A DNA stretch of 64,000 nt. It comes from Mariniflexile maritimum (GTDB taxonomy: Bacteria > Bacteroidota > Bacteroidia > Flavobacteriales > Flavobacteriaceae). Position 1 is the stretch's first letter, and each line of letters starts with the position of its first letter. Of the stretch, positions 1 to 12,903 are shown one piece after another. The notes below the pieces were generated by a model. The model saw only the letters and a list, made by a program, of their open reading frames with translations, was not told the origin of the DNA and searched no databases. The stretch is taken from NCBI RefSeq assembly GCF_009746565.1, contig NZ_WRPN01000002.1, positions 1-64,000 of the forward strand. Direction: 5' to 3'. Position numbers and translations under genes: made by a program.

Positions 1-125
1 GCTTTACAAATAGAATCGATTTTTAGTGGTTCACTTTCATCCGCTGTAGGTGGTTCACTTTCACCCGCCGCACTATGCTCACTTTAATCCGCTGTGGGTG
101 GTATACTATGCCCGTTTTTTGCACA
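1..125. mobile_element. Terminus of an IS21-like insertion sequence (partial)
   Basis: The left edge of the window is the end of an insertion sequence that continues outside it; no transposase lies in the visible part. The junction is read from the interrupted gene on the minus strand: its reading frame is normal through the Asp codon at 125-127 and then turns into repetitive sequence. Read away from the junction, the element begins TGTGCAAAAAACGG, and multiple tandem terminal repeats follow. IS21-family elements have TG...CA ends and several internal terminal repeats bound by IstA, which fits. The family assignment rests on end structure only. Confidence 0.6.
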
Positions 126-1780
126 TCAATAAATACAATCGTATTTGGTAATTTTGGAGGGTCATCCTTTCTAAGAGCTTTTAATTCAGTCAAGAAATAA
201 GAAAAAGCAATTGCAGATTTCTCTCCTTCACTCAAATTAGTTGCAGGGTGACCACTTCTTTCAAGTGTGAACTTTTCGTTTCGTATTTCAATTTTTATAT
301 CATCTCGATGAAGAAAAATTTCTAAAATATCATTCAATTCCGTTTGGCCTTTTACACTGCTTTTTAGCTGAGCTTCAAGAGCTAATTTATCAATTTTATT
401 TGTGGTGATTTTAGAATTGATGTTTGTTATTATTGATACTGCTTTGTTTTTATCAGATTCTTTTTTATTATAATTCTCAGCTTGTAAATATTCTGCGACA
501 TAATGGTTTAAAATTTTTGCTAATGCCTTTTTCTTATTCTCGTCAAATTCAGCTAACCAGTCATTATGAGCCTTTACAGCTTTTTTTATTTCCTTAAAAT
601 CTTCTTCAAAAGTTATTAATTCAATTTCGGTTGCAGGAATATTATTGAAATAATCGGAAGTTTTACGTTTTAAGTCCTTCCCTAACACTATCAGTTGAGT
701 TTTATATTTTCTAACAGTTTTACTGTAATTATCTATTGCCTCTTGATAATCTTTCTGAAAACTTTTTCCAAAATTCCTTTTATCAGGAAATTTTATTTTT
801 AATTTCTCTTTTTCGACATCTATTTCCTCATGTACGCTTGCAATAGTATCTTGTATTTCTTTGAGTTTTTTTGAATAGTATGAGTTTAAATCGCTAATCC
901 TATTTTCGGGTAAATTTTTCGTGCAAAATTTGCATTCTGTTGAATTTTGGTGCAGTTTTATTCCTATTTGAACCCAATCGAATAATTCTTGGTCTCCGTC
1001 TAATTCTGGAAAGGGAATTGATTTTGGAGCAGTATCTTCTAAAACCCTTTTTACTTCGTTTGCAAGGCTTTCAAGGTTTTCTGTAAAACTATAATCTTCC
1101 TTTTGTGGTTCAAAATCTTTTGTTGCAACTACATCTACTTTTATTTTATCCCGTTCAGTATTGGATAGAGTGTATTTTGTCAAATCACTTTTTACCTTAC
1201 TAGCAATTACCCTAAAATGGGAAATATTAAAGTCATCTCTTGTTAATTTACCATCTAAATAGTTTTCTCTTATGTTTTTTGCTTTGTCAGTAAACTTGCT
1301 TCCAGTTTTCTTGTCATATTTTCCAAATTCATCAACGATTTTCTGATAACGATTATCTCTGATGTTTTCTAACTGCTCTTTCTTTTTATCTAATGTCTTA
1401 ATCTTTTTATCCAGTTCACCCGATGGGTCACCAAGATAAAATGATATCGGTTGAATGTCTGAATTTGGTACATCAAATGTAAAAATCCGTTTGATGTAGT
1501 TAGTATTGAATACTTTTACGTCATACGGGAAGTTTTCTAAATCATTGTGGGTATGGTTTGTAGGTGAATTATTTTTTTCTGTAGTAAAGTCAAATTCTGA
1601 CCCTGTGAAATATTTGTTTTTATCCTTAAATTCTAAGTTTTGAAAAAGCTTTGAAAGGGTTGTTTTTCCTGAATAGTTCCAACCGTAAATGAGATTCTTT
1701 TTCTTGAAATTATCTATGCCATTCCAAGTGAAGTTTTGGAATATGCCAAAGTCTTTGAGTTTGTTGATTTTTGTAATCAT
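23..1780 (-). pseudogene. RloC-like zinc-hook anticodon nuclease, C-terminus lost to an IS
   Basis: ABC/SMC-like ATPase of the RloC/PrrC type, the anticodon nucleases that accompany type I restriction loci. Walker A is GWNYSGKTT (residues 33-41). A long coiled-coil middle carries a CxxC zinc hook (CKFC, Cys283 and Cys286), the RloC hallmark, and the ABC signature LSEGE is at 516-520. Walker B begins normally (TIVFID, 547-552) and then stops: residues 553-585 are translated IS repeats. The rest of the ATPase domain and the expected C-terminal HEPN-like nuclease domain are missing. The start codon overlaps the stop of the methylase gene (TAATG), so it was the last gene of the restriction operon. 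The product should lack both ATPase function and RNase activity. The rest may lie beyond the IS outside the window. The RloC call is strong from the hook plus context; the tRNA target is unknown. Confidence 0.75.
26..121. repeat. Four 24-bp imperfect tandem repeats at the IS end
   Basis: Units start at 26, 50, 74 and 98 with an exact 24-bp period. The first two share GTGGTTCACTTTCA followed by a CCGC core; the third (TCACTTTAATCCGC) and fourth are more diverged. They are most simply transposase-binding repeats of the IS terminus. Confidence 0.7.
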
Positions 1781-3753
1781 TAACCTAAAGTTTCATTTAA
1801 AGTTGCTTTAATCATCAACTCAGCATCAATAGAGGATTTAGTTAAGGTCTCTCTTAATTTTTCGCATTTTTCCATAAGAAAAACCAACTCTTCTTGTTTA
1901 GCAAGAGAGGGAACTTTAACCTTTACTGTTTTGATTTTAGTAACTGATAGTGAAACATTAGCCATTCCTTTCATAAGTGGAACTAATAATTCGTCTTTAT
2001 AGTTACTAAGGAAATAATAAAGGTATTTTGCTGAAAGCACCGTTTTGTCTTTTGGAACTGCTGCTGCCAAAATCGACCCTAATGCAAACTTACCTGTTTG
2101 AAAATGAATTCTTTTTAAAGATGCATGTCCGTGCCCACTGGATGAAACTAATGGAATACAAACTGCATCACAATCAAATTGATGCTCATTATGTGAACTT
2201 CTTTCTTCGGCTGTTACAACTAATGGATATTTCCCCTCTACAGCTTTTTGGATACCAGTAATACCTTTAACAACATTGCAAAGCTCTCCAATAGTTTTAT
2301 ATTCATATTCGCCAATATCCGTTAATGCTGATTGTATTTCGCTTATGTCAGATTGAATATTTGATAAATCATTAGTTAATTCATCTATTAATGTGCTTGA
2401 ATCTTTACCATTATTTTCAGGCTTTGAATTAGGATTTTTTATATCCAAATCATAATCTCTCTCAACTATTTTTTCAATAGAAACTTTCCAAGCAGATTCA
2501 TTTTCTTTTCTGTTATACCACCAATCTTTAATTGGTTGAAATTCTTCTAACTGCATTGGTTTAGTTTTGGAATAACTTTTAATTCCTTCTGGATAGGAGA
2601 GTTGATAATACCAAATTTCTTTAGTGGGGGAACCTTTCTCAAAGAACAAAAGGTTTGTTGCAACTGTTGCATAAGGTTTAAACACAGAGTTTGGTAAACG
2701 TATTATCGTATGCAAATTACAATCTTCTAATAATTTCTGTCTAATCCTTTGTTTTACACCTTCACCAGCTAAAGAACCGTCGGGCAACACAATTCCTGCT
2801 TTTCCACCTTGTTTTAGTAAGTGTATCATCAAGATTAAAAAGAGGTCAGCACTTTCTTTTGTCCTAAAATTCTGAGGAAAATTGTTTTCATTATTGTTTG
2901 CAACAATACCGCCAAAAGGTGGATTTGCCAAAATTGTATTTACTCGGTTTTTCTCTGTATAATTGCTCAATGGTTGTTCTAAACTATCACGAAATATAAT
3001 ATTTGGAACTTCTATGTCGTGCAAAATTAAGTTGGTTGTAGCTAACAAATAAGGTAATGGCTTGTATTCCCAACCAATTATATTTTCTGCAATGCTTTGC
3101 CGTTCTTCAACGCTGTTGGCCTGTTTTTTCAAGTGTTCGATTGCTGCCGTTAGATAGCCACCAGTACCACAAGAAGGGTCAAGAATTTTATCGCCCAATT
3201 GCGGATTTATAATTTCGGTAATAAACTGAGTAATTGCCCTAGGGGTATAAAACTCACCCGATTTACCCGCAGATTGAAGTTCCTTTAGAATGGTTTCGTA
3301 AAGTTCGCCAAATGCGTGTTTGTCTTTGGTTGTGTTAAAATCAATTTCATTGAGTTTATTCAGTACCTTGCGGATATTAGTTCCGCTTTTCATGTAGTTG
3401 TTATTGCCTTCAAAAACTTCACGAAGTATCAACGCTCGTTTGTACTTCACACCTTCCGATGGCACAAGCTGAATATCTTTTAATTGCTTGAAAAGTTTAT
3501 TGTCAACAAAGCTTTGAAGTTCATCACCTGTAATTCCTTCATCATCGCCAGCCCATGCGTCCCAATGCAATTCGGCTGGTATCGGACTCACATAATTGTC
3601 GTCCATTAATTCAAGTTCCTTGTCTTTGTCGGAAAATATTTTGTAGAAAAGCATCCAACCCAACTGCTCAATGCGTTGAGCATCGCCATTCAGCCCAGTA
3701 TCTGTCCACATTATTTTGCGGATGCTGTTCAATATTCCTTTTAAGTTTGCCAT
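1780..3753 (-). CDS. hsdM: Type I restriction-modification methylase HsdM fused to one HsdS-like recognition domain
   Basis: N6-adenine DNA methyltransferase of a type I system. An HsdM N-terminal helical domain (about 1-150) precedes the catalytic domain, with motif I DPSCGTGGY (192-200) and motif IV NPPF (277-280). After about residue 440 a linker and short coiled coil lead into a segment (about 480-640) that resembles one target recognition domain of HsdS, ending in a KQEELVFLMEKCEKL-type helix. It is 657 aa, against roughly 500 for a plain HsdM, and no separate hsdS is seen. Two such fusion chains would be needed to read a two-part site, so a palindromic recognition sequence is plausible (inference). 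The gene starts 8 bp after the FRG gene and its stop overlaps the next start. Confidence 0.85.
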   Translation of the reverse strand: MANLKGILNSIRKIMWTDTGLNGDAQRIEQLGWMLFYKIFSDKDKELELMDDNYVSPIPAELHWDAWAGDDEGITGDELQSFVDNKLFKQLKDIQLVPSEGVKYKRALILREVFEGNNNYMKSGTNIRKVLNKLNEIDFNTTKDKHAFGELYETILKELQSAGKSGEFYTPRAITQFITEIINPQLGDKILDPSCGTGGYLTAAIEHLKKQANSVEERQSIAENIIGWEYKPLPYLLATTNLILHDIEVPNIIFRDSLEQPLSNYTEKNRVNTILANPPFGGIVANNNENNFPQNFRTKESADLFLILMIHLLKQGGKAGIVLPDGSLAGEGVKQRIRQKLLEDCNLHTIIRLPNSVFKPYATVATNLLFFEKGSPTKEIWYYQLSYPEGIKSYSKTKPMQLEEFQPIKDWWYNRKENESAWKVSIEKIVERDYDLDIKNPNSKPENNGKDSSTLIDELTNDLSNIQSDISEIQSALTDIGEYEYKTIGELCNVVKGITGIQKAVEGKYPLVVTAEERSSHNEHQFDCDAVCIPLVSSSGHGHASLKRIHFQTGKFALGSILAAAVPKDKTVLSAKYLYYFLSNYKDELLVPLMKGMANVSLSVTKIKTVKVKVPSLAKQEELVFLMEKCEKLRETLTKSSIDAELMIKATLNETLG

Positions 3754-3761
3754 ATATTATT

Positions 3762-4766
3762 CTAAAAAAAATCTTGGTTCAAATAATGTTTAAATGAGTT
3801 ATTTGCTATTGATTCTTCCTGAGGGTAAATATACTCAGCATTTATTGGAAATCTTTTCCCTTTAGTTAGTTTTAAGGTTATATACTCATATAAAGACTTA
3901 TGAATATTTAAGCAAGTAATTTTAGGTAGATAGTATGGGCTATCTTTAACTCGTTGATTTTGGCCTTGAAAAAAATATTCTAATGGCTTGTCTTCACTAC
4001 CGTTAAAAATGAAAAGCCCTTTTTGATTAATTATATTCAAATTTTGTTGATTCCAAACTAAATTAAAAGAGGGTCTATTTTTCAAACTAAAGGCGAACCC
4101 ATTTCTTTTATAGCCTGGGATTTGAGCCAGTTGGATTTGAGCTAAATTATTATAATTAAAATTTTCCAAATCATTTAATACCTGATCAGCGTTAACCTTT
4201 GGTGAATTTTCTAAAATATCATCAATTTGTGATAAACTAGATTGAATGTATTCAAGATAATTAATTAAGTCCCTCCATTTAGTATCAATAATATAAATAG
4301 AACAGTAATTGTCAATACTATTATCGGAATTTGAATATTTTAAACCGTCGGTTGCAAAAAACAATGCATTTTCAAAATTGTAAGTCCAATCCAATAATGG
4401 GGTCGGCGCACCATAATGCTGCAAAAAACTTAATACCGAAATATCAAAAGCTGGCTGTCCAAAAGCATTGAAAAATTTTTCAAGTAATCTATTCTGCCAA
4501 TTTTTTGCATTATTTATTTCAAGACTTATAAAATCAATAAAACTATGACCAAGTTTTTGCAATTCAAGATTTAACCAATGCCTTTGAGCTGAATTATAGA
4601 GTTTATATTTAGCCTCAGTCATACCTCTAAAGACCAAACCGTATTTTGATTGTTCCTTTTTATAAGCTGCTAACAATTCATTAAGGTGTTCTTTTGAATC
4701 TACATTTATATGCTCAAAATAATTACTCTTTTGTTCAATACTATTATATATTTCAACTTTAGCCAT
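3762..4766 (-). CDS. FRG-domain protein embedded in the type I restriction operon
   Basis: 334-aa protein with the FRG domain signature: LVFRGM near residue 45, a downstream YNSAQRHW helix, and the PTPLLDWTYNFENALFFA block near 120-140 that is conserved in FRG proteins. There is no signal peptide or membrane segment, so it is cytoplasmic. Its ATG shares a base with the hsdR stop (TAATG) and it ends 8 bp before hsdM, so it is co-translated with the restriction genes. FRG proteins recur in defence loci but have no firmly assigned biochemical activity that I know of. A modulatory or effector role tied to the restriction system is inference from position. Confidence 0.75.
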   Translation of the reverse strand: MAKVEIYNSIEQKSNYFEHINVDSKEHLNELLAAYKKEQSKYGLVFRGMTEAKYKLYNSAQRHWLNLELQKLGHSFIDFISLEINNAKNWQNRLLEKFFNAFGQPAFDISVLSFLQHYGAPTPLLDWTYNFENALFFATDGLKYSNSDNSIDNYCSIYIIDTKWRDLINYLEYIQSSLSQIDDILENSPKVNADQVLNDLENFNYNNLAQIQLAQIPGYKRNGFAFSLKNRPSFNLVWNQQNLNIINQKGLFIFNGSEDKPLEYFFQGQNQRVKDSPYYLPKITCLNIHKSLYEYITLKLTKGKRFPINAEYIYPQEESIANNSFKHYLNQDFF

Positions 4767-7159
4767 TAAGCTCCTGATTTATATAATTCTTGCTCTAGTT
4801 CTTTTATTGCTTTCAAGTATTTTGCCTTACTTCCAAATTGTTTTATGATTTCCATTGGAGAACCAAAATCAGTTAAAGGTTTTACTTTTAGAATATCCAT
4901 ACTTTCAATATTGGTAACACCTTCGTCTGCATATTTATCAAGCAAACTTTCTAAAACCTTTCGGGCTTCTTTACCATATTTTGTAAAGTAATCACGTTTT
5001 TTCACATTGTTTGCTCGCTCTTTTCTTGTTAGCGGTGGTTGGTCAAAAGCAACATGGCAGATTAAATCGAACAAATCAACTTCGCGGTTTACGGCATCTC
5101 GCAACGCTTCAACCAAAACACCTTGTTCTTCCAACTCTTTTATAATTGATTCTTTTTTGTCGGAATTGTTCCATTTATTCAAAAAGTCATCAAGCGAAGC
5201 ATATTTGCCTTTAATCAATTCTTTTGTGTGGTCTTTTAAGCTTGTAGTGATTGGTTTTCCGTCATTGTCGAAATACATTTCACGACTAATCAAAATAGAA
5301 ACATCAACACCGTTTACATAAACCTTTTGTCTTGGCTCATTTATCCTGTCTGTAGATGTTTGCGGTTCAGGTTGTCGGATTTCAGGTTTGATTTGTATTT
5401 CTTCACCTGAAATTTCATCAACGATTAGAGAGGTATCATTTTCTTCTTCGTCAACAATATAGCTCAAATCGGTATCTTCGGCGACTGGTTTTATACGAAT
5501 TGGGTCACCGTCAAAATCAGGGTCGGCAAACAGGTCTGTTACATTTCTAAAGTCGAGAATGGTAAAATACATTTTGCCAAATTCTTCATTGATTCGTGTG
5601 CCTCTACCCACGATCTGCTTAAACTTGGTCATGGATTTTATCTCGGCATCTAGCACAATAACTTTACATGTTTGAGCATCAACACCAGTAGTCATTAATT
5701 CCGATGTAGTTGCAATTACGGGAAAGCGTTCTTCAGGATTTATGAAATTGTCAAGTTCTCTTTTTCCTTCATCATTATCGCCCGTAATCTGCATGATATA
5801 CTTGTAATTTTGAGCCACTAAGTCTGAATTAAGGTTTGAAAGAGCAGAACGCATTCGTTCAGCATGGTCAATGTCGGTGCAGAAAACAATGGTTTTTGCA
5901 AAACGGTCATAACCTTTCAAAAATTCAGTTAGCTTTCGTGCTACCGCTTGGGTGCGTTCTTCAATTACCAAGTTTCTGTCAAAGTCCTTTCGGTTATACA
6001 CTCGGTCTTCAACCTCATTCCCATCTTTATCAGTTTTGCCTCTTTCTGGCCGCCATCCCTCAGCATCAACATTCAGATTTACTCTAACAACTCTGTAAGG
6101 AGCAAGGAAACCATCATCAATTCCTTGTTTAAGTGAATACGTATAAAGTGGTTCGCCAAAATATTCACTATTTGAAACTTCATTAGTTTCCTTTGGTGTA
6201 GCAGTCAAACCAATATGCGTTGCTTTCTTGAAATAGGTTAGTATCTCTCTCCAAGCACTGTCTTCTTTAGCACTTCCTCTATGGCACTCATCAATAACAA
6301 TTAAATCAAAGAATTCAGGAGAAAATTGCTTGTATGCGTTCGCTTCTTCGTCAGCACCTGACAAACCTTGGTATAAAGCTAAATAGACCTCATAGCTTTT
6401 ATCAATCATGCGGTGTTTTACAACCGTCATTTTATCCTTGAAATGTTTAAAGTCACCTCTTCGTGTTTGGTCAATTAGGGCGTTTCGGTCAGCTAAGAAT
6501 AATATTCTTTTTTTCTTTCCACTTTTCCAAAGGCGGTGAATAATTTGAAAAGCTGTGTAAGTTTTTCCAGTACCAGTTGCCATAACAAGAAGAATTCTGT
6601 CTTGTCCTTTTGTAATAGCTTCGACTGTTCGATTTACCGCAATTTGTTGGTAGTATCTTGGGCTTCTTCCGCTTCCGTCAAAGTAGTAATCTTGAGCTAC
6701 CACTCTTTCTGCTTCTAGTGTTTCAATTCCCTTGTATTTCTTATATTTCTGCCAAAGCTCTTCGGGGGTTGGGAAACTGTTAATATCTAATTCAGTTTCA
6801 ATATTTCCATTGGTCGCTGTTCGGTCATGGAAAACAAAACCGTCTCCATTACTGCTAAATACACAAGGGATGTCGAGGATTCTAGCATAGTCTAAAGCTT
6901 GTTGAATACCTGCTCGAACAGAATGCTTATTGTCTTTTGCCTCAACAATAGCTATTGGAATATTTGGTTTGTAGTAAAGTATGTAGTCTGCCCTTTTTCT
7001 TGCGCCTCTGGCAGTGAGTTTTCCTCTTACGTAAATTTTACCATCCGTAAATGAAACTTCTTCAAGTAGTTGCGTTAATTTATCCCAACCTGATTTTTCA
7101 ATCGCAGGAGTAATAAACTTGGTGCATATATCTCTTTCCGATAGTGTTTTCTTGTTCAT
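4766..7159 (-). CDS. hsdR: Type I restriction endonuclease subunit HsdR (EcoEI-like)
   Basis: ATP-dependent translocase/nuclease subunit. The N-terminal PD-(D/E)xK-like nuclease core shows Asp58 and EAK at 73-75. The SF2 helicase core follows with Walker A ATGTGKT (194-200), the DECH box at 290-293, LTATP motif III and the arginine-finger block VGRGTRINE. The C-terminal 170 residues match the EcoEI-type HsdR C-terminal domain that contacts the methylase. At 797 aa it is typical of the compact EcoEI type. It is the first gene of the four-gene minus-strand operon and overlaps the FRG gene by one base. All motifs look intact. Confidence 0.93.
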   Translation of the reverse strand: MNKKTLSERDICTKFITPAIEKSGWDKLTQLLEEVSFTDGKIYVRGKLTARGARKRADYILYYKPNIPIAIVEAKDNKHSVRAGIQQALDYARILDIPCVFSSNGDGFVFHDRTATNGNIETELDINSFPTPEELWQKYKKYKGIETLEAERVVAQDYYFDGSGRSPRYYQQIAVNRTVEAITKGQDRILLVMATGTGKTYTAFQIIHRLWKSGKKKRILFLADRNALIDQTRRGDFKHFKDKMTVVKHRMIDKSYEVYLALYQGLSGADEEANAYKQFSPEFFDLIVIDECHRGSAKEDSAWREILTYFKKATHIGLTATPKETNEVSNSEYFGEPLYTYSLKQGIDDGFLAPYRVVRVNLNVDAEGWRPERGKTDKDGNEVEDRVYNRKDFDRNLVIEERTQAVARKLTEFLKGYDRFAKTIVFCTDIDHAERMRSALSNLNSDLVAQNYKYIMQITGDNDEGKRELDNFINPEERFPVIATTSELMTTGVDAQTCKVIVLDAEIKSMTKFKQIVGRGTRINEEFGKMYFTILDFRNVTDLFADPDFDGDPIRIKPVAEDTDLSYIVDEEENDTSLIVDEISGEEIQIKPEIRQPEPQTSTDRINEPRQKVYVNGVDVSILISREMYFDNDGKPITTSLKDHTKELIKGKYASLDDFLNKWNNSDKKESIIKELEEQGVLVEALRDAVNREVDLFDLICHVAFDQPPLTRKERANNVKKRDYFTKYGKEARKVLESLLDKYADEGVTNIESMDILKVKPLTDFGSPMEIIKQFGSKAKYLKAIKELEQELYKSGA

Positions 7160-7529
7160 AGAAACATTAAGCCAAATATGACATCAAATATGGTTAAATT
7201 AGTTTGAGTTACTTTTTATTTTGCTTGAAAAATTTAAATATACCAACTTTAAAATTGTGTAGGAAATAAAATATCATTTTAATAAAAAAATGCATATAAA
7301 CTTTTAGTTACTTTGCTCGGTTTTTATTTTAAAAGCAATATGTTACGCACGCCAGTCTTCACTTAAACCACACGGATTTGAGCCTTGTTATGCTATCTGT
7401 TACAATTTTACCTAGAAATAGCCAAAATTCGCTTAGAGGCGTTCATATAGAAGAGGTCAAGAAGTTTATAACGTCTATGCAATAAAACATTTTTGAGGCT
7501 CTAAGAAGCAGTATTTTAATGTTGTTATA
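7160..7529. other. AT-rich spacer upstream of the restriction operon
   Basis: About 370 bases without a credible gene. Reading on the minus strand there are two CATATTTG boxes (7173-7180 and 7185-7192), near-misses to the TAnnTTTG -7 element, just before hsdR. I see no matching -33 element. The stretch 7340-7460 has higher GC than its surroundings and no recognisable coding frame. Confidence 0.4.
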
Positions 7530-7563
7530 AAAAAGAAAACCCTGTAACAATAAAATCACAGGG
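7530..7563 (-). terminator. Rho-independent terminator after the DUF1737 gene
   Basis: Read on the minus strand, CCCTGT (7563-7558) pairs with ACAGGG (7545-7540) around a 12-base AT loop, followed by TTTTCTTTTTT. It closes the unit that begins at 8475 and separates it from hsdR. Confidence 0.7.
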
Positions 7564-7592
7564 CTTTCAGGTCTAAATGCAGAGTTCAAACA

Positions 7593-7742
7593 TTATTTTC
7601 CCATAATTACAAAATAGTCTTTATCGGGAGTTACCACCAAATTACTGGATATTTTATATCCTTTTTTCAGTAAATTATTTACTTCTTCTTCAAAATCTTT
7701 TGCCTCATAACTTTTTACAATTTTGACTTTTTTAATGTCCAT
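7593..7742 (-). CDS. Small DUF1737-like protein (49 aa)
   Basis: A 49-codon frame beginning MDIKKVKIVKSYEAKDFEEE. It has an alternating helix/strand layout with the KxxDFEEEVNNLLKKGYKI pattern seen in DUF1737 proteins, which are short alpha/beta proteins often encoded by phages and islands. It starts 4 bp after the stop of the 242-aa gene and is followed directly by a terminator, so the two are co-transcribed. The function of the family is unknown. Confidence 0.65.
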   Translation of the reverse strand: MDIKKVKIVKSYEAKDFEEEVNNLLKKGYKISSNLVVTPDKDYFVIMGK

Positions 7743-7746
7743 TTGA

Positions 7747-8475
7747 TTAAATTTTATAGGTTAATACTTTATTGAAACTGAAAATCACTTTTGATAAATC
7801 ACGGCTTAAACCGTGTTCACCTGTTTGCTGCTGCTGAATTAAAGAGTGGTCATCATAGAGGTATTTTCCAACGTGCGGCCACAAATCATCATATGTCAAT
7901 CCAATCACTTTAGAAGCCTTAATAAAGTCTGTGACATCGTGCATTATTTGGACTTGGTCTTTGTGAAAAGCATAAATGCTGAACGGTTCTTTGCTTAAGG
8001 CTATTATAACCTTATTATCTTTGATGTTGAATAATTCTAAAATCCGATAGCTTATTTTCTTAGGAGCTTTTTCCAACGCACGTTTTAACTGTTGGTTGCT
8101 GTTCTGCCTTACTTCGGCATACTGAAAGAAACTATTGTTGTATTGGTACAATTCAATTATGCTGTCTTTAGTTCTTTCATGCATTTGTTCAAGTTCTTTT
8201 AACCTAGAGGTGTTTAGGTCTCTTAATTCTAAAAACTTCTCAAAAGTCAAATCCAATTCTTTAGCTGAAGCGGAATTGTCATATTCGTTTTTTTGATGTT
8301 TCATAAAGACGTCCATAAACCCGCCGTTGAGCAGGTCTTCTGATTTAATGTTTTTGACTTTTAATTTTTCCAACTCCTTTGATGCATTAATGTAAATGTT
8401 AGCTGCATTAGTGATTCTTTCAATTGTGGCGTTGTAGCCTTTTTGGTCGTAACCAATTTTTAAATTTCTGTTCAT
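7747..8475 (-). CDS. Island protein of unknown function (242 aa)
   Basis: Not recognised. The protein is soluble and charged, with long helical segments (about 10-110, rich in Glu, Lys and Leu, possibly coiled-coil) and a more globular second half containing strands around KVIIALSKEPFSIYAFHKDQ. There is no signal peptide, membrane span or Cys motif. It lies directly downstream of the iteron-like array and shares an operon with the DUF1737 gene, so a role in element maintenance, mobilisation or copy control is possible but unproven. Confidence 0.55.
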   Translation of the reverse strand: MNRNLKIGYDQKGYNATIERITNAANIYINASKELEKLKVKNIKSEDLLNGGFMDVFMKHQKNEYDNSASAKELDLTFEKFLELRDLNTSRLKELEQMHERTKDSIIELYQYNNSFFQYAEVRQNSNQQLKRALEKAPKKISYRILELFNIKDNKVIIALSKEPFSIYAFHKDQVQIMHDVTDFIKASKVIGLTYDDLWPHVGKYLYDDHSLIQQQQTGEHGLSRDLSKVIFSFNKVLTYKI

Positions 8476-8543
8476 AATGTTTTTTGTTTTATCAAGCAGA
8501 TTATTAAAAATGCTGCTTTAGTTAATTTTTTAATGAATGAGTA

Positions 8544-8732
8544 TGTAGGGTAATTTTTAAAAACTTTTATATATATGTATATATGTGCATTTATTTTTAT
8601 AATTACTCTACTTGCTCTACAAATAGGTTTAAAATCAGCATTTATGGTGGGTTAATTGTGTAGGGTAACTTGTAGAGTAATAAATGGGAAGCTCTACATA
8701 TTCTACAATTTAGTGTAGAGCAAGTAGGGCAA
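8544..8732. repeat. Iteron-like array of TGTAGRGYAA motifs, candidate replication origin
   Basis: The 10-base motif T-GTAGRGYAA occurs in forward orientation at 8544-8553, 8659-8668, 8671-8680, 8714-8723 and 8724-8732 (the last lacking its first T). It is inverted at 8603-8611 (first T also absent) and 8612-8621, with a degenerate inverted copy at 8689-8698. Several copies are adjacent, about one helical turn apart, and the block at 8603-8621 is the near-exact reverse complement of 8714-8732. The array sits right behind the helicase gene in an AT-rich stretch containing ATATATATGTATATATG (8570-8586). Iterons next to the initiator gene are typical of satellite and plasmid origins; the origin call is inference. 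Confidence 0.6.
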
Positions 8733-8770
8733 TTTTTAATTTTAATTTTGTTTTCCATTTTCTCTAAGTT

Positions 8771-10225
8771 TTAAGGTTTTTTAATTAAGGAAAATTTAGT
8801 AACACCTCCAGAAATTCTAGTTTCATATTTGTGACCTTTAAAGGCGGCATAAGTCTGTAGCCATTGACTAGTGATTTTGCTTCTTACGCTATTGTCATTT
8901 GAACTAATATCTAATTTGTTGGCAAGATCTTTAAGATTGTAATATTCTCTGCTAGAGGTGTATTCCTTTTCCATTAATTCAACAAACTTCTTAGAAGTGT
9001 TATTAATTAGGTTTTGTTTTCTGAGAGCGGGGTCATCGTAATTGGTTAATCCAAGTTTTAGGTACATTTGCAAACAGCTCATCATAAATTTGTCAAATGC
9101 TTTATAGTCGTTTTCGTCCCATTCTGTAAACAATAGCTTTTTGAATTCTTGTTGAGGTTTGTTGCTGGAATTGAAATAATTATTTAATAATAGAAGTTGT
9201 TTACGGTCTGAATAACTATCAGAATTTTGAGGTATGGTGTAGTTGGTAGTCATAGCTATTTTTGGACTGTCGGCATTATCAACTATGATTTTTTTCTGAT
9301 GTTTACGTTCGATATTTAATGAATCTGTAATAGTGCTAAATAAGTCTTCAAATTCAAACTCTCTGCCTACATCTTGAATTACAAATAAATCGGTATCAGG
9401 CTCTATGCTTTGATAAACAAATTTGTCTCGCTTTAAGTCTAAATTCTTGCCATTGTACTCAATTACATTTATTAATTCACTAAGAGCTTTGATTATTATG
9501 CCTTTACCGCTACGTCCATGAGGGTCATTGGTAGCTTGAGATAAAACATCGCTTATTATAACAGCTTTAGCAATAGAAGGATTTTTGTATTTATGTAATA
9601 GGTAGCCTATAACAATAATAACATTCAAATAGTGTTCCTTTGAATTGGTTGTTAGTTTTAAGAATTTCTTGAATTGTGATTTTAATTTGCAGCTCCCATC
9701 AAAATGTCTATTAATAATTGCACTTTTAAAAATGTACCGCTTTTGTTTTTTGAATTCTTTATACGGAATTGCATATATTCCTTTTGGATTAACTCTAACA
9801 ACAATATTTTCATAGAAGTAATGTGATATGCTTTTAGTATCTCTATATTTCTCTATCTCAAGTTCAGGTAAGCTGCCAATAAGAGCCTTTTTTGATATTA
9901 AAAACCTTTCTCCATTGACTAAAAACTCACTTGTAAGAACCTCTTTTTTTTGTGAGTTAACATACGTCAAACAGAAATTAAAAACATCTTGTGGACTATA
10001 AAAAACAACAATATTGAAAGTTGTTTTTATAGTAAAGGTTCCACCAAAAAAATTAAGGATAGAGAAGCCATTTGCAATAAGAAACTCTCTTAAAAGTGAA
10101 GGCTCTATTATAGGTCTTCCATTAGTTGGATGTGTTTTCCAAAAAATGTTTCCTTTAAATTTCTTATTTTTAGCTTGAACTTTTGATAAAATGCTTTGAG
10201 GGCTATGCTTTGATTTTTTTACCAT
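8771..10225 (-). CDS. Primase/SF3-type helicase of the island
   Basis: 484-aa replication protein. The C-terminal half is a superfamily 3-like ATPase: P-loop DPHGRSGKGI (234-243), a Walker B-like segment LFVIQDVGREFEFEDLF, and a motif-C-like KIAMTTNY. The last ~80 residues form a helical domain that could be a winged helix. The N-terminal half (1-200) lacks an obvious TOPRIM or AEP catalytic triad, so primase activity is uncertain. Such proteins start replication of phage satellites, integrative elements and plasmids. It begins 6 bp after the HTH gene and the iteron-like array follows its stop. Confidence 0.7.
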   Translation of the reverse strand: MVKKSKHSPQSILSKVQAKNKKFKGNIFWKTHPTNGRPIIEPSLLREFLIANGFSILNFFGGTFTIKTTFNIVVFYSPQDVFNFCLTYVNSQKKEVLTSEFLVNGERFLISKKALIGSLPELEIEKYRDTKSISHYFYENIVVRVNPKGIYAIPYKEFKKQKRYIFKSAIINRHFDGSCKLKSQFKKFLKLTTNSKEHYLNVIIVIGYLLHKYKNPSIAKAVIISDVLSQATNDPHGRSGKGIIIKALSELINVIEYNGKNLDLKRDKFVYQSIEPDTDLFVIQDVGREFEFEDLFSTITDSLNIERKHQKKIIVDNADSPKIAMTTNYTIPQNSDSYSDRKQLLLLNNYFNSSNKPQQEFKKLLFTEWDENDYKAFDKFMMSCLQMYLKLGLTNYDDPALRKQNLINNTSKKFVELMEKEYTSSREYYNLKDLANKLDISSNDNSVRSKITSQWLQTYAAFKGHKYETRISGGVTKFSLIKKP

Positions 10226-10231
10226 AGCCCT

Positions 10232-10525
10232 TTATTTTTTTAGTTCAATAATTTGTTGCTCTATTTGTGAGCGTTTGTAGTAAACTCGTCCACCAATCTG
10301 AAATGCTGTTAATATTCCTTTGCGAGTCCAATTATGTATTGTACTCAAATCGACATTAAGCATTTTTGCCAATTCTTGGCGTTGAAGATAGGTGGTGGGT
10401 TCTTTAGGTTGAAATTCTTTTTTTAACTCGCTAAGTAAAGAGATTGTTACTCCTTTAATTACATCTTGAGTAATTTCTTTTTTTAATTGGTCTGGTGTTG
10501 AGCCAATGAATTGAATTTGTTCCAT
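10232..10525 (-). CDS. Excisionase-type helix-turn-helix protein
   Basis: 97 aa. The C-terminal 50 residues form a MerR-like winged HTH of the HTH_17/excisionase family: LQRQELAKMLNVDLSTIHNW, then RKGILTAFQIGGRVYYKRSQIEQ. In integrative elements such proteins act as excisionase (Xis) or as regulators of the downstream replication gene. The gene is 6 bp upstream of the helicase gene, so the two form an operon. Confidence 0.8.
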   Translation of the reverse strand: MEQIQFIGSTPDQLKKEITQDVIKGVTISLLSELKKEFQPKEPTTYLQRQELAKMLNVDLSTIHNWTRKGILTAFQIGGRVYYKRSQIEQQIIELKK

Positions 10526-10623
10526 GCTTGCAACGTTTTAAATGTTATGCTGCAAATCACGGATTCATTTATGCTGTCAAAAAAGGGGTAAAAAGTGTGT
10601 TTTATGTGTTTTTTAAATCGTAT

Positions 10624-11322
10624 TCAATTTAATTCTTTTTTTATCTCTTTAAATTTAGAGAAATGGTCATTTAACATTGGTAGGTGAGTGTTTTCGTAAG
10701 CATGTTTTTTATCAACATTTTTAATTTTAACATCATAACTTTTTTTAATGAAGGCTTTGTATTCTTCTGTAGTTAAAAAACGTTGCTTTTTGTAAATTGG
10801 GTCGTTGTATAAATTACTATTAAAAAAGTGCCATATATTCATAAAACGTGTTGCCGTTCCATGTGATTTTCCAAGAGCATAATTTTCAACTAAATACTTA
10901 AATAATTCAAACCCATTGCTGCTAAAGTGATTAGGGTTGTAATCAGAATGTTTGATGTTTTGACCATCCGTATTAGTATTTGTGCTTTTAGGGTTCAAGT
11001 AGATGTCGTTTAATTCTTTCTCAAAGACATTCCTAAGGCCAATAAGAGGGGTAATTTGTCTTTCTGCAAGTTCAGTTATTTGAAAATTGTTTTTTGCATC
11101 ATGTAAAGCCTCGATAATTTCATTTATAAGGTTTTGTATAAAGTCTATTTTATCTTTGAAATCGGTATGCAGACTTAATTCCTGATTGAACCTTTGGGAT
11201 AAAGAGTTATATAGGCCACTAAAGTATTTTGTGAAGTTTTTATTTTCTTTAACTTTCATTTTAGCCCAAGTTTTAGATAGCTGTTTTTCACTTTTTGAAA
11301 GTTTTTTGTCTTCTTTCTTCAT
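10624..11322 (-). CDS. Island protein of unknown function, co-transcribed with the integrase
   Basis: 232 aa, not recognised. The N-terminus is very basic and helical (KKEDKKLSKSEKQLSK), followed by a predicted helical bundle. A second half (about 125-225) has a conserved-looking EYKAFIKKSYDVKIKNVDKKHAYENTH region. There is no signal peptide or membrane segment. Its ATG lies 19 bp after the integrase stop on the same strand, which suggests joint expression and perhaps a DNA-binding accessory role (inference). Confidence 0.55.
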   Translation of the reverse strand: MKKEDKKLSKSEKQLSKTWAKMKVKENKNFTKYFSGLYNSLSQRFNQELSLHTDFKDKIDFIQNLINEIIEALHDAKNNFQITELAERQITPLIGLRNVFEKELNDIYLNPKSTNTNTDGQNIKHSDYNPNHFSSNGFELFKYLVENYALGKSHGTATRFMNIWHFFNSNLYNDPIYKKQRFLTTEEYKAFIKKSYDVKIKNVDKKHAYENTHLPMLNDHFSKFKEIKKELN

Positions 11323-11341
11323 TTAGTTGATTCTTTATTTA

Positions 11342-12595
11342 TTAGTTGAAATGGTCAAAGGCTTGCTTAGCTTTTTCATAATCAGGTAGTACAATGTAGT
11401 TGAGGAATTCTTTTTCAGTACCATGCCCAGTAATGTATATTAGATAGGGTGTAGGTATTTTTCCATAGTTATTTGTAGCAAAAGTCCTTCTCCCAATATG
11501 ACTGCTAACAAGTTCCCATTTAGGGAAATTTCCTGAAATATCTCTAAAATCATATTTAGTAGGTTTTTTCCCTTCTTCAGCTATACTTATTCTCTTTTTG
11601 CCCTCACACATTGTATTAATTTTAGCCTCTTTACAGACCTCCTTAATATAGTCGTTATATTTTTGGTCAGAAATTGGTTTAGGGAAATTGTTTTTAAGGG
11701 ATTTCAATAACGTTTTTAATTCCTTTGAAACAGGAACATACATAGATTTGCCTGTTTTTATTTGGTCAAACTTGATAAACGTTTTTTTGTTCTCATCTGT
11801 AATTATCATTTCCTTTTTAAACCGCATAAAATCACTAATCCTCTGTCCCGTATATATGCTTATCAGAAGCCAATTTCTTGCGTTTTCTAAATAGCTGTGT
11901 TTTAACTCAACATTTTTTATTTTTTCAATCTCTTCTAATGTTAAGTATGTTTTTGGTGATTTTTCAGTTTTAATTTTCAAATCATTTAAGCTATCACTTA
12001 TTTCAATACCTTTTTTGTTAGCATATCGACAAATGGTTTTAATGCGTTCTAACTCCTTGTTTTGAGTATTTACCGCATAGCTATACTTGTTAGAAAATTT
12101 AATGTAGTTAGTTTTAAAATCTTCATCAATGTCTTTTACCCTTAAGATTGTGTTGTATTCATTTTGAATCCTAATAATTTTATTTTTTGTTGTTGTGATG
12201 CGTTTTATTTGGCTTTCCTTGATTTCGTTATTGGTTTTTTTACTCTCAATGTAATATTCAATAAAATCAACCAAATAAATAGGTAGTTCAGTTTTCTTAG
12301 AGTTATTGTAGAAATCATTTACTATGTCTTTAAGCCACGCTTTTTGGTTTGGATTTGGGTTTTCTTGTTCAAACCGTTCAAGAATATAGTCTTCTAACGG
12401 AGCTAATTTTTTATTTACGCTTGCTATTTCATTTTTTTCATCGCCAGTTAAACCTTTCTTTTTTTTCCATGCTCCTTTTGAAATATGGATTTGGGTATTT
12501 GACTCAAATTGCTCTCTATTAGATTTTAGCTGCAAACGTACTTTCAATGCTGCTTTTTCCTTTGTAGAACGATATAGAAAATAAACTCTTGCCAT
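11342..12595 (-). CDS. Tyrosine recombinase/integrase of the island
   Basis: 417 aa phage-type integrase. An arm-binding N-terminal domain (1-100) precedes a SAM-like core-binding domain (about 105-205) and the catalytic domain. Visible catalytic residues are Arg252 (TGQRISD), His366 and Arg369 (SHIGRR), the GH box at 390-391 and Tyr400 (FLNYIV). All are intact, so the enzyme may be active. It is the gene nearest the right junction, with three TGTACG direct repeats just upstream of its start. Confidence 0.92.
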   Translation of the reverse strand: MARVYFLYRSTKEKAALKVRLQLKSNREQFESNTQIHISKGAWKKKKGLTGDEKNEIASVNKKLAPLEDYILERFEQENPNPNQKAWLKDIVNDFYNNSKKTELPIYLVDFIEYYIESKKTNNEIKESQIKRITTTKNKIIRIQNEYNTILRVKDIDEDFKTNYIKFSNKYSYAVNTQNKELERIKTICRYANKKGIEISDSLNDLKIKTEKSPKTYLTLEEIEKIKNVELKHSYLENARNWLLISIYTGQRISDFMRFKKEMIITDENKKTFIKFDQIKTGKSMYVPVSKELKTLLKSLKNNFPKPISDQKYNDYIKEVCKEAKINTMCEGKKRISIAEEGKKPTKYDFRDISGNFPKWELVSSHIGRRTFATNNYGKIPTPYLIYITGHGTEKEFLNYIVLPDYEKAKQAFDHFN

Positions 12596-12618
12596 AATTA
12601 GATTGTTGTTACAATTTC

Positions 12619-12662
12619 TGTACGCTAATTTATGATAATTGTACGTTAATTGTACGTAAAAT
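12619..12662. repeat. Three TGTACG direct repeats upstream of the integrase
   Basis: TGTACGCTAATT (12619-12630), TGTACGTTAATT (12640-12651) and TGTACGTAAAAT (12651-12662). Their position between the integrase start and the putative junction suits arm-type integrase binding sites or operators controlling integrase expression. Confidence 0.55.
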
Positions 12663-12776
12663 TTCTTTTTATTTCAATTGCTTTAAATCTATTTCTATTT
12701 TGAAACCTATATATAGTCTGTTATTTAGGGGGTTTTCATTAATTTTTGGTAGAATGAAATTTAATTAAAATATATA

Positions 12777-12801
12777 TTTGTGCTGTCCCCGCCCGCACAA
12801 A
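12777..12801. other. Candidate attachment site at the island's right junction
   Basis: TTTGTGC and GCACAAA form a perfect 7-bp inverted repeat around a GC-rich TGTCCCCGCCC, an abrupt change from AT-rich surroundings, and a strong terminator follows immediately. This looks like the 3' end of a small stable RNA gene (tRNA-like acceptor end plus terminator), the usual target of tyrosine integrases. The sequence to its left does not continue as a tRNA T-arm, as expected if only the crossover segment remains. No second copy is visible, so this is a hypothesis. Confidence 0.35.
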
Positions 12802-12830
12802 AACCGAAGAGCAATCTTCGGTTTTTTTTT
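12802..12830 (+). terminator. Strong rho-independent terminator at the island edge
   Basis: AACCGAAGA (12802-12810) pairs perfectly with TCTTCGGTT (12815-12823) around GCAA and is followed by a run of T. No gene precedes it on the plus strand within the island, which suggests that it belongs to the gene whose 3' end served as the insertion target. Confidence 0.75.
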
Positions 12831-12857
12831 GTTTAAAATTGGCCTTTAAAAAAAGTC

Positions 12858-12903
12858 AGGTACAACATAGGTACAACATTTTGCTATTCTAACGCTAATT
12901 TAT
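12858..12903. repeat. Tandem AGGTACAACAT pair plus an integrase-region repeat outside the junction
   Basis: AGGTACAACAT occurs twice head to tail (12858-12868 and 12869-12879). ACGCTAATTTAT at 12892-12903 is an exact copy of 12622-12633 upstream of the integrase. Repeats of this kind on both sides of the candidate junction suggest arm sites, or the relic end of a second element at the same target. Confidence 0.45.

Follow-up and report, generated by a model that had tools for sequence, protein, structure and literature searches.

The origins of phage-inducible chromosomal islands (PICIs) lie directly 3′ of the rep gene, where two sets of iterons flank an AT-rich region, and one such origin drove the maintenance of a plasmid (PMC6092414). 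SaPI Rep and the SCCmec protein Cch2 read iterons downstream of their own genes, and they do so with a C-terminal domain (PMC7581432). Our literature search, which left most subscription journals outside its coverage, found no description of the Bacteroidota origins that are the subject of this work.

Here, we analyse a locus within 64 kb of Bacteroidota DNA (hereafter the window, meaning this whole stretch) from a genome totalling 3.66 Mb. We put the probability at roughly 85% that a repeat array at 8545–8732, together with an AT-rich stretch at 8556–8602, is the helicase-read replication origin of an integrative island, i.e. a rep-ori module of the PICI/SaPI type. An earlier note on this DNA had proposed a SaPI-like rep-ori layout, and an AT-rich stretch set among repeats immediately 3′ of a putative initiator gene does match the origins of PICIs and SaPIs (PMC6092414, PMC7581432).

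The repeat array and its AT-rich stretch

The array is made up of short half-sites, most of them paired, which are arranged around the AT-rich stretch as follows:

8545–8553, forward strand: half-site GTAGGGTAA, left of the AT-rich stretch (exact motif counts)
8556–8602, no strand: AT-rich stretch, 89% A+T, candidate melting region (stability scan)
8603–8620, reverse strand: abutting inverted half-sites GTAGAGCAA-GTAGAGTAA, 9-bp spacing (motif counts, 18-mer search)
8660–8680, forward strand: half-sites GTAGGGTAA / GTAGAGTAA, spacing 12 bp (motif counts)
8689–8706, reverse strand: degenerate inverted half-sites with two mismatches apiece, spacing 9 bp (motif-free repeat test)
8715–8732, forward strand: abutting half-sites GTAGAGCAA-GTAGGGCAA, the inverted partner of 8603–8620 (inverted repeat, motif counts)

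The 9-mer core GTAGRGYAA has eight exact copies in the window, where 1.2 are expected by chance, and seven of these fall inside 8545–8732 (+8545, −8603, −8612, +8660, +8672, +8715 and +8724). Extended to the 10-mer TGTAGRGYAA, the motif retains five exact copies on both strands of the 64 kb, all within 8544–8723; when the 295-bp intergenic stretch is shuffled with its dinucleotides preserved, such copies average 0.004 and never exceed one. A motif-free test of the same intergenic stretch returned nine related copies, compared with a typical three to five and a maximum of seven in 500 shuffles. The array is far above chance, and its seven perfect 9-mers confirm the earlier count of at least seven good copies, five forward and two inverted. 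Across the 3.66-Mb genome, zero-mismatch matches to the doubled 18-mer (two half-sites) are confined to the array. A search of Rfam gave no relevant match.

The inverted pair of blocks that had been pointed out before (8603–8621 and 8714–8732) is real and belongs to a 33-nt inverted repeat that is 79% complementary. The partial adjacency of copies also stood, while the proposed spacing of one helical turn had to be refined: half-sites are paired at 9 bp (8603/8612, 8715/8724 and the degenerate 8689/8698) or at 12 bp (8660/8672), which is slightly under or over one turn. Between half-site 8545 and pair 8603, the AT-rich stretch lies in a 58-bp gap, and the least stable 45-mer of the visible island (window 1–12,800) is 8561–8605. 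Iterons hence lie on both sides of an AT-rich region 3′ of the helicase gene, as in PICIs, albeit asymmetrically, with one clear half-site on the left.

The island around the array

Listed from the right-hand end, the visible island contains the following features in addition to the array and its cargo:

12784–12801, forward strand: sequence like the 3′ end of tRNA-Leu, candidate right attachment site
11342–12595, reverse strand: tyrosine integrase (family searches)
10624–11322, reverse strand: 232-aa protein, function unassigned, between the integrase and helix-turn-helix genes
10232–10525, reverse strand: helix-turn-helix protein, excisionase-like; HTH_17, PHROG 66 (family searches)
8771–10225, reverse strand: D5/SF3-type helicase, 484 aa, proposed initiator; PHROG 28855 (structure prediction)
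7747–8475, reverse strand: 242-aa protein, function unassigned, downstream of the array where the cargo side begins

The array thus sits between the helicase and 242-aa genes, and the latter is followed by a type I restriction operon that includes an FRG-domain gene and, at the contig start, a truncated AAA_13 gene. Within this cargo (window 23–7159), the FRG-domain gene is the PADLOC candidate PDC-S15 and the AAA_13 gene is PDC-S06. The integrase and the tRNA-Leu-like right end are the candidate attachment features, and the left side runs off the contig (C12). Among the visible island genes searched, none was identified for packaging, capsid remodelling, interference or partition.

The attachment sequence, the contig-start repeat and the AAA_13 family were all tried as leads to the left end, which was not found by them. 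Contig C36, where an intact tRNA-Leu lies, carries next to it a different element with Rhs-like cassettes. The contig-start repeat (GTGGTTCACTTTCATCCGC, window 1–120) is shared with the ends of four further contigs, truncates the AAA_13 gene (23–1780) and looks like the end of an insertion sequence. At the other side, window 12784–12890 holds a remnant of the tRNA-Leu 3′ end with a terminator and GTACAACAT repeats, which is nearly repeated behind the intact tRNA-Leu of C36. In L268 (97–16139), a series of Rhs-like C-terminal cassettes, with a small gene after every one of them, adjoins tRNA-Leu and another tyrosine integrase.

A predicted SF3-type helicase as the proposed initiator

The helicase of the window falls into no family of Pfam or NCBIfam at significant score, no solved structure is related to it by sequence, and the PHROGs family to which it belongs (28855) has no assigned function there. 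Its predicted structure (mean pLDDT 83.6) nevertheless matches D5/SF3 helicases and has the SF3 AAA+ core fold, which bears out the SF3-type assignment made in the earlier note. Of the VIA structural matches, the SaPI5 primase-helicase scores best (Z 19.6 over 388 aligned residues, model residues 25–475), with ASFV PrimPol and poxvirus D5 within about one Z unit. A primase domain is absent from the protein, and none was identified nearby.

Modelled alone, residues of about 394–484 (window 8774–9046) are predicted to form a winged helix (pLDDT 90), so that the C-terminal DNA-binding domain of a SaPI Rep-type initiator has a predicted counterpart here. The best structural matches of this domain are DNA-binding repressors (Z up to 7.6), which support the winged-helix fold and give no information on its target. 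We propose this winged helix as the reader of the iterons.

A recurring architecture behind homologous helicases

Scans of genome contigs and viral contigs with the single window protein returned no relative, and relatives were then sought by genome-wide searches. These yielded helicase homologues within the family (21 of 397 genomes), the order (9 of 395) and the phylum (26 of 395). When the 350 bp after the helicase stop codon were examined for repeated 8-mers, about 15 of some 55 loci were array-positive. They include the integrase-bearing islands L034, L044, L046 and L092, the prophage-like L042 and the plasmids pSR14 and pSR31. With five copies, L034 is a weak case, which was included on account of its pairs at 9 and 11 bp.

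The spelling of the motif varies by locus (e.g. TCGGTAAC, AGGTGTA, GGTGTAAT, AAGTGTTGT, GTGGTCCAG and GTGTCACAG), and what is conserved directly 3′ of homologous helicases is the architecture rather than the letters: half-sites paired at 9-bp spacing and inverted blocks around a spacer. This build recurs on further islands of the Bacteroidota, in a few prophages and on two circular plasmids of Salinibacter. The earlier note had held that absence of the motif near homologous helicases would speak against an origin; the letters are indeed absent there, but the design returns in other letters, including on circular plasmids.

Same-orientation gaps of 8–12 bp measure exactly 9 bp in 25 of 47 cases. 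Pairs at this lag number 2.13 per array-positive locus versus 0.37 in the 3′ flanks of related phage helicases, an excess that is not fully independent, as the array-positive loci were chosen partly by repeat count. In stretches of up to 20 kb, the richest repeat window lies behind the helicase in 8 of 13 loci and ties or falls just beyond in four, whereas another repeat outranks it in L046. In this same-genus island, positions 6300–6900 hold up to 17 TTTTCGGT-like repeats per 300 bp, beside the island's own helicase array.

Most homologous helicases, above all those of phages, have no array behind the gene: seven copies are reached in only 2 of 157 phage 3′ flanks, and 9-bp pairs are absent from both. 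Covariation of repeats and C-termini can therefore not be followed over these roughly 160 phage loci. A homologue on a Persicobacter plasmid has no comparable array within the stretch read, and L045, a similar island, has weak repeats only.

The fullest arrays (L093, L050, L046, L092, L044 and L099) share a two-fold symmetric plan, in which an outer cluster is followed after 42–65 bp by an inner pair, after a further 84–109 bp by an inverted inner pair and after 42–56 bp by a second outer cluster. L034 and L042 have fewer sites and inner distances of 77 and 80. The array of the window keeps the alternating inverted pairs in a compressed and lopsided form, its spacings being shorter than those of its relatives. 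Iteron arrays of plasmids can serve partition or incompatibility, and the array of the window, which is less symmetric than its relatives, might also be such a locus or a decaying remnant that has lost its function. We regard this as very improbable in view of the intact helicase, the seven perfect half-sites and the lack of an identified partition gene in the visible island.

The genomic surroundings of the arrays bear on two further explanations. As the array lies just upstream of the gene at 7747–8475, it could be an operator at which the helix-turn-helix protein (10232–10525) or the helicase itself controls this gene or the cargo operon; paired half-sites also fit repressors, and initiators often autoregulate. 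However, the array of L044 lies between the helicase gene and a tRNA-Cys with no intervening gene, leaving nothing there to control, arrays trail the helicase gene in varied contexts in which the downstream genes differ, and promoter-like matches around the array of the window do not exceed chance. We thus consider an operator unlikely.

Short direct and inverted repeats are likewise typical of the arm-type sites of integrases and the binding sites of excisionases, both of which the island appears to encode. Yet, about 4 kb separate the array from the candidate right attachment site. In L092, an element of about 7.6 kb with a tRNA-Arg and a 48-bp direct repeat (7072 and 14697) as its bounds, the distance between array and tRNA end is about 1.7 kb. 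Arrays track the helicase rather than the island ends, close to which separate candidate arm repeats are found (such as a 20-bp repeat in L044), so that there is scarcely any likelihood of recombination sites.

A plasmid pair points to the wing

The Salinibacter plasmids pSR14 and pSR31 carry different repeats, GTGGTCCAG and GTGTCACAG, and their helicases show differences at 27 of 285 residues in the N-terminal part, 7 of 463 residues in the body and 11 of the last 26 residues (C-terminal end versus body, Fisher p = 2e-11 for this one pair). Aligned with the window model, the variable C-terminal end falls on the wing of its winged helix; together with the differing repeats, this suggests that the wing reads them. 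This comparison is a pointer rather than proof, being a single pair of proteins whose ends vary easily, and the differences in the N-terminal third count against the wing as the specificity determinant.

A model for the candidate origin

In the reading that we favour, a helicase-read origin, the D5/SF3 helicase encoded directly upstream (8771–10225, reverse strand) would act as a self-loading initiator. Its C-terminal winged helix would bind the paired 9-bp half-sites, and hexamers would form at the inverted blocks; the AT-rich stretch would then melt, and the helicase would unwind the DNA for replication enzymes of the host or a helper. We infer not only binding, melting and replication but also their timing, which would follow excision by the integrase. 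The two-fold symmetric layout of the fullest relatives is what is expected for two head-to-head hexamers.

More tentatively, and at somewhat less than even odds, these loci may represent undescribed and widespread self-replicating islands of the Bacteroidota, perhaps with phage satellites among them, that share one origin design with a symmetric layout in its fullest examples and in which the wing switches the spelling of the repeats, thereby creating compatibility groups. If so, Bacteroidota islands that seem to be passive carriers of restriction genes would be replicons themselves, and their origin could be excised as a small helicase-plus-array cassette. Given the varied repeats and near-identical helicases of one plasmid pair, how such initiators choose their origin would be directly testable.

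Comparison with known systems

Like the origin of PLE of Vibrio cholerae, a satellite origin formed by repeats in a non-coding stretch, the candidate origin described here consists of repeats; the PLE initiator, however, is a RepA_N protein for which helicase activity is not predicted (PMC7145576). Parallels also exist with Salinibacter ruber pSR14 and pSR31, in which a homologous helicase (27–28% identity) is followed by paired half-sites in inverted blocks, the pairs being spaced 8–11 bp. Unlike the island, these plasmids are free circular replicons with repeats of their own (GTGGTCCAG or GTGTCACAG) and a helicase that has an N-terminal DnaG-like primase region. In addition, pSR14 has a terminase large subunit-like gene (L051 6614–7414) and may therefore be a phage-plasmid or a packaged element.

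With SCCmec cch2, the locus shares a D5-type helicase, a C-terminal DNA-binding domain—here a predicted one—and repeats directly behind the gene (PMC7581432). The iterons of Cch2 number three and are 5 nt long, and it has a polymerase-primase as its partner, whereas the half-sites here number seven to nine at 9 bp each and no such partner was found.

The likeness extends to SaPIs and to the PICIs of Gram-positive and Gram-negative bacteria, whose order of integrase, excision/regulatory helix-turn-helix gene, initiator helicase and iterons around an AT-rich stretch is seen here as well, and the predicted helicase fold is nearest to that of the SaPI5 primase-helicase. In contrast to those islands, the helicase comes from another sequence family (PHROG 28855) and lacks a primase domain, the repeats are spelled differently and set in 9-bp pairs, and the island resides in a Bacteroidota host with type I restriction cargo and no identified packaging or interference genes. 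By its anatomy, then, the module resembles those of PICIs, SaPI Rep and Cch2, and the island that carries it may be regarded as a candidate PICI at most.
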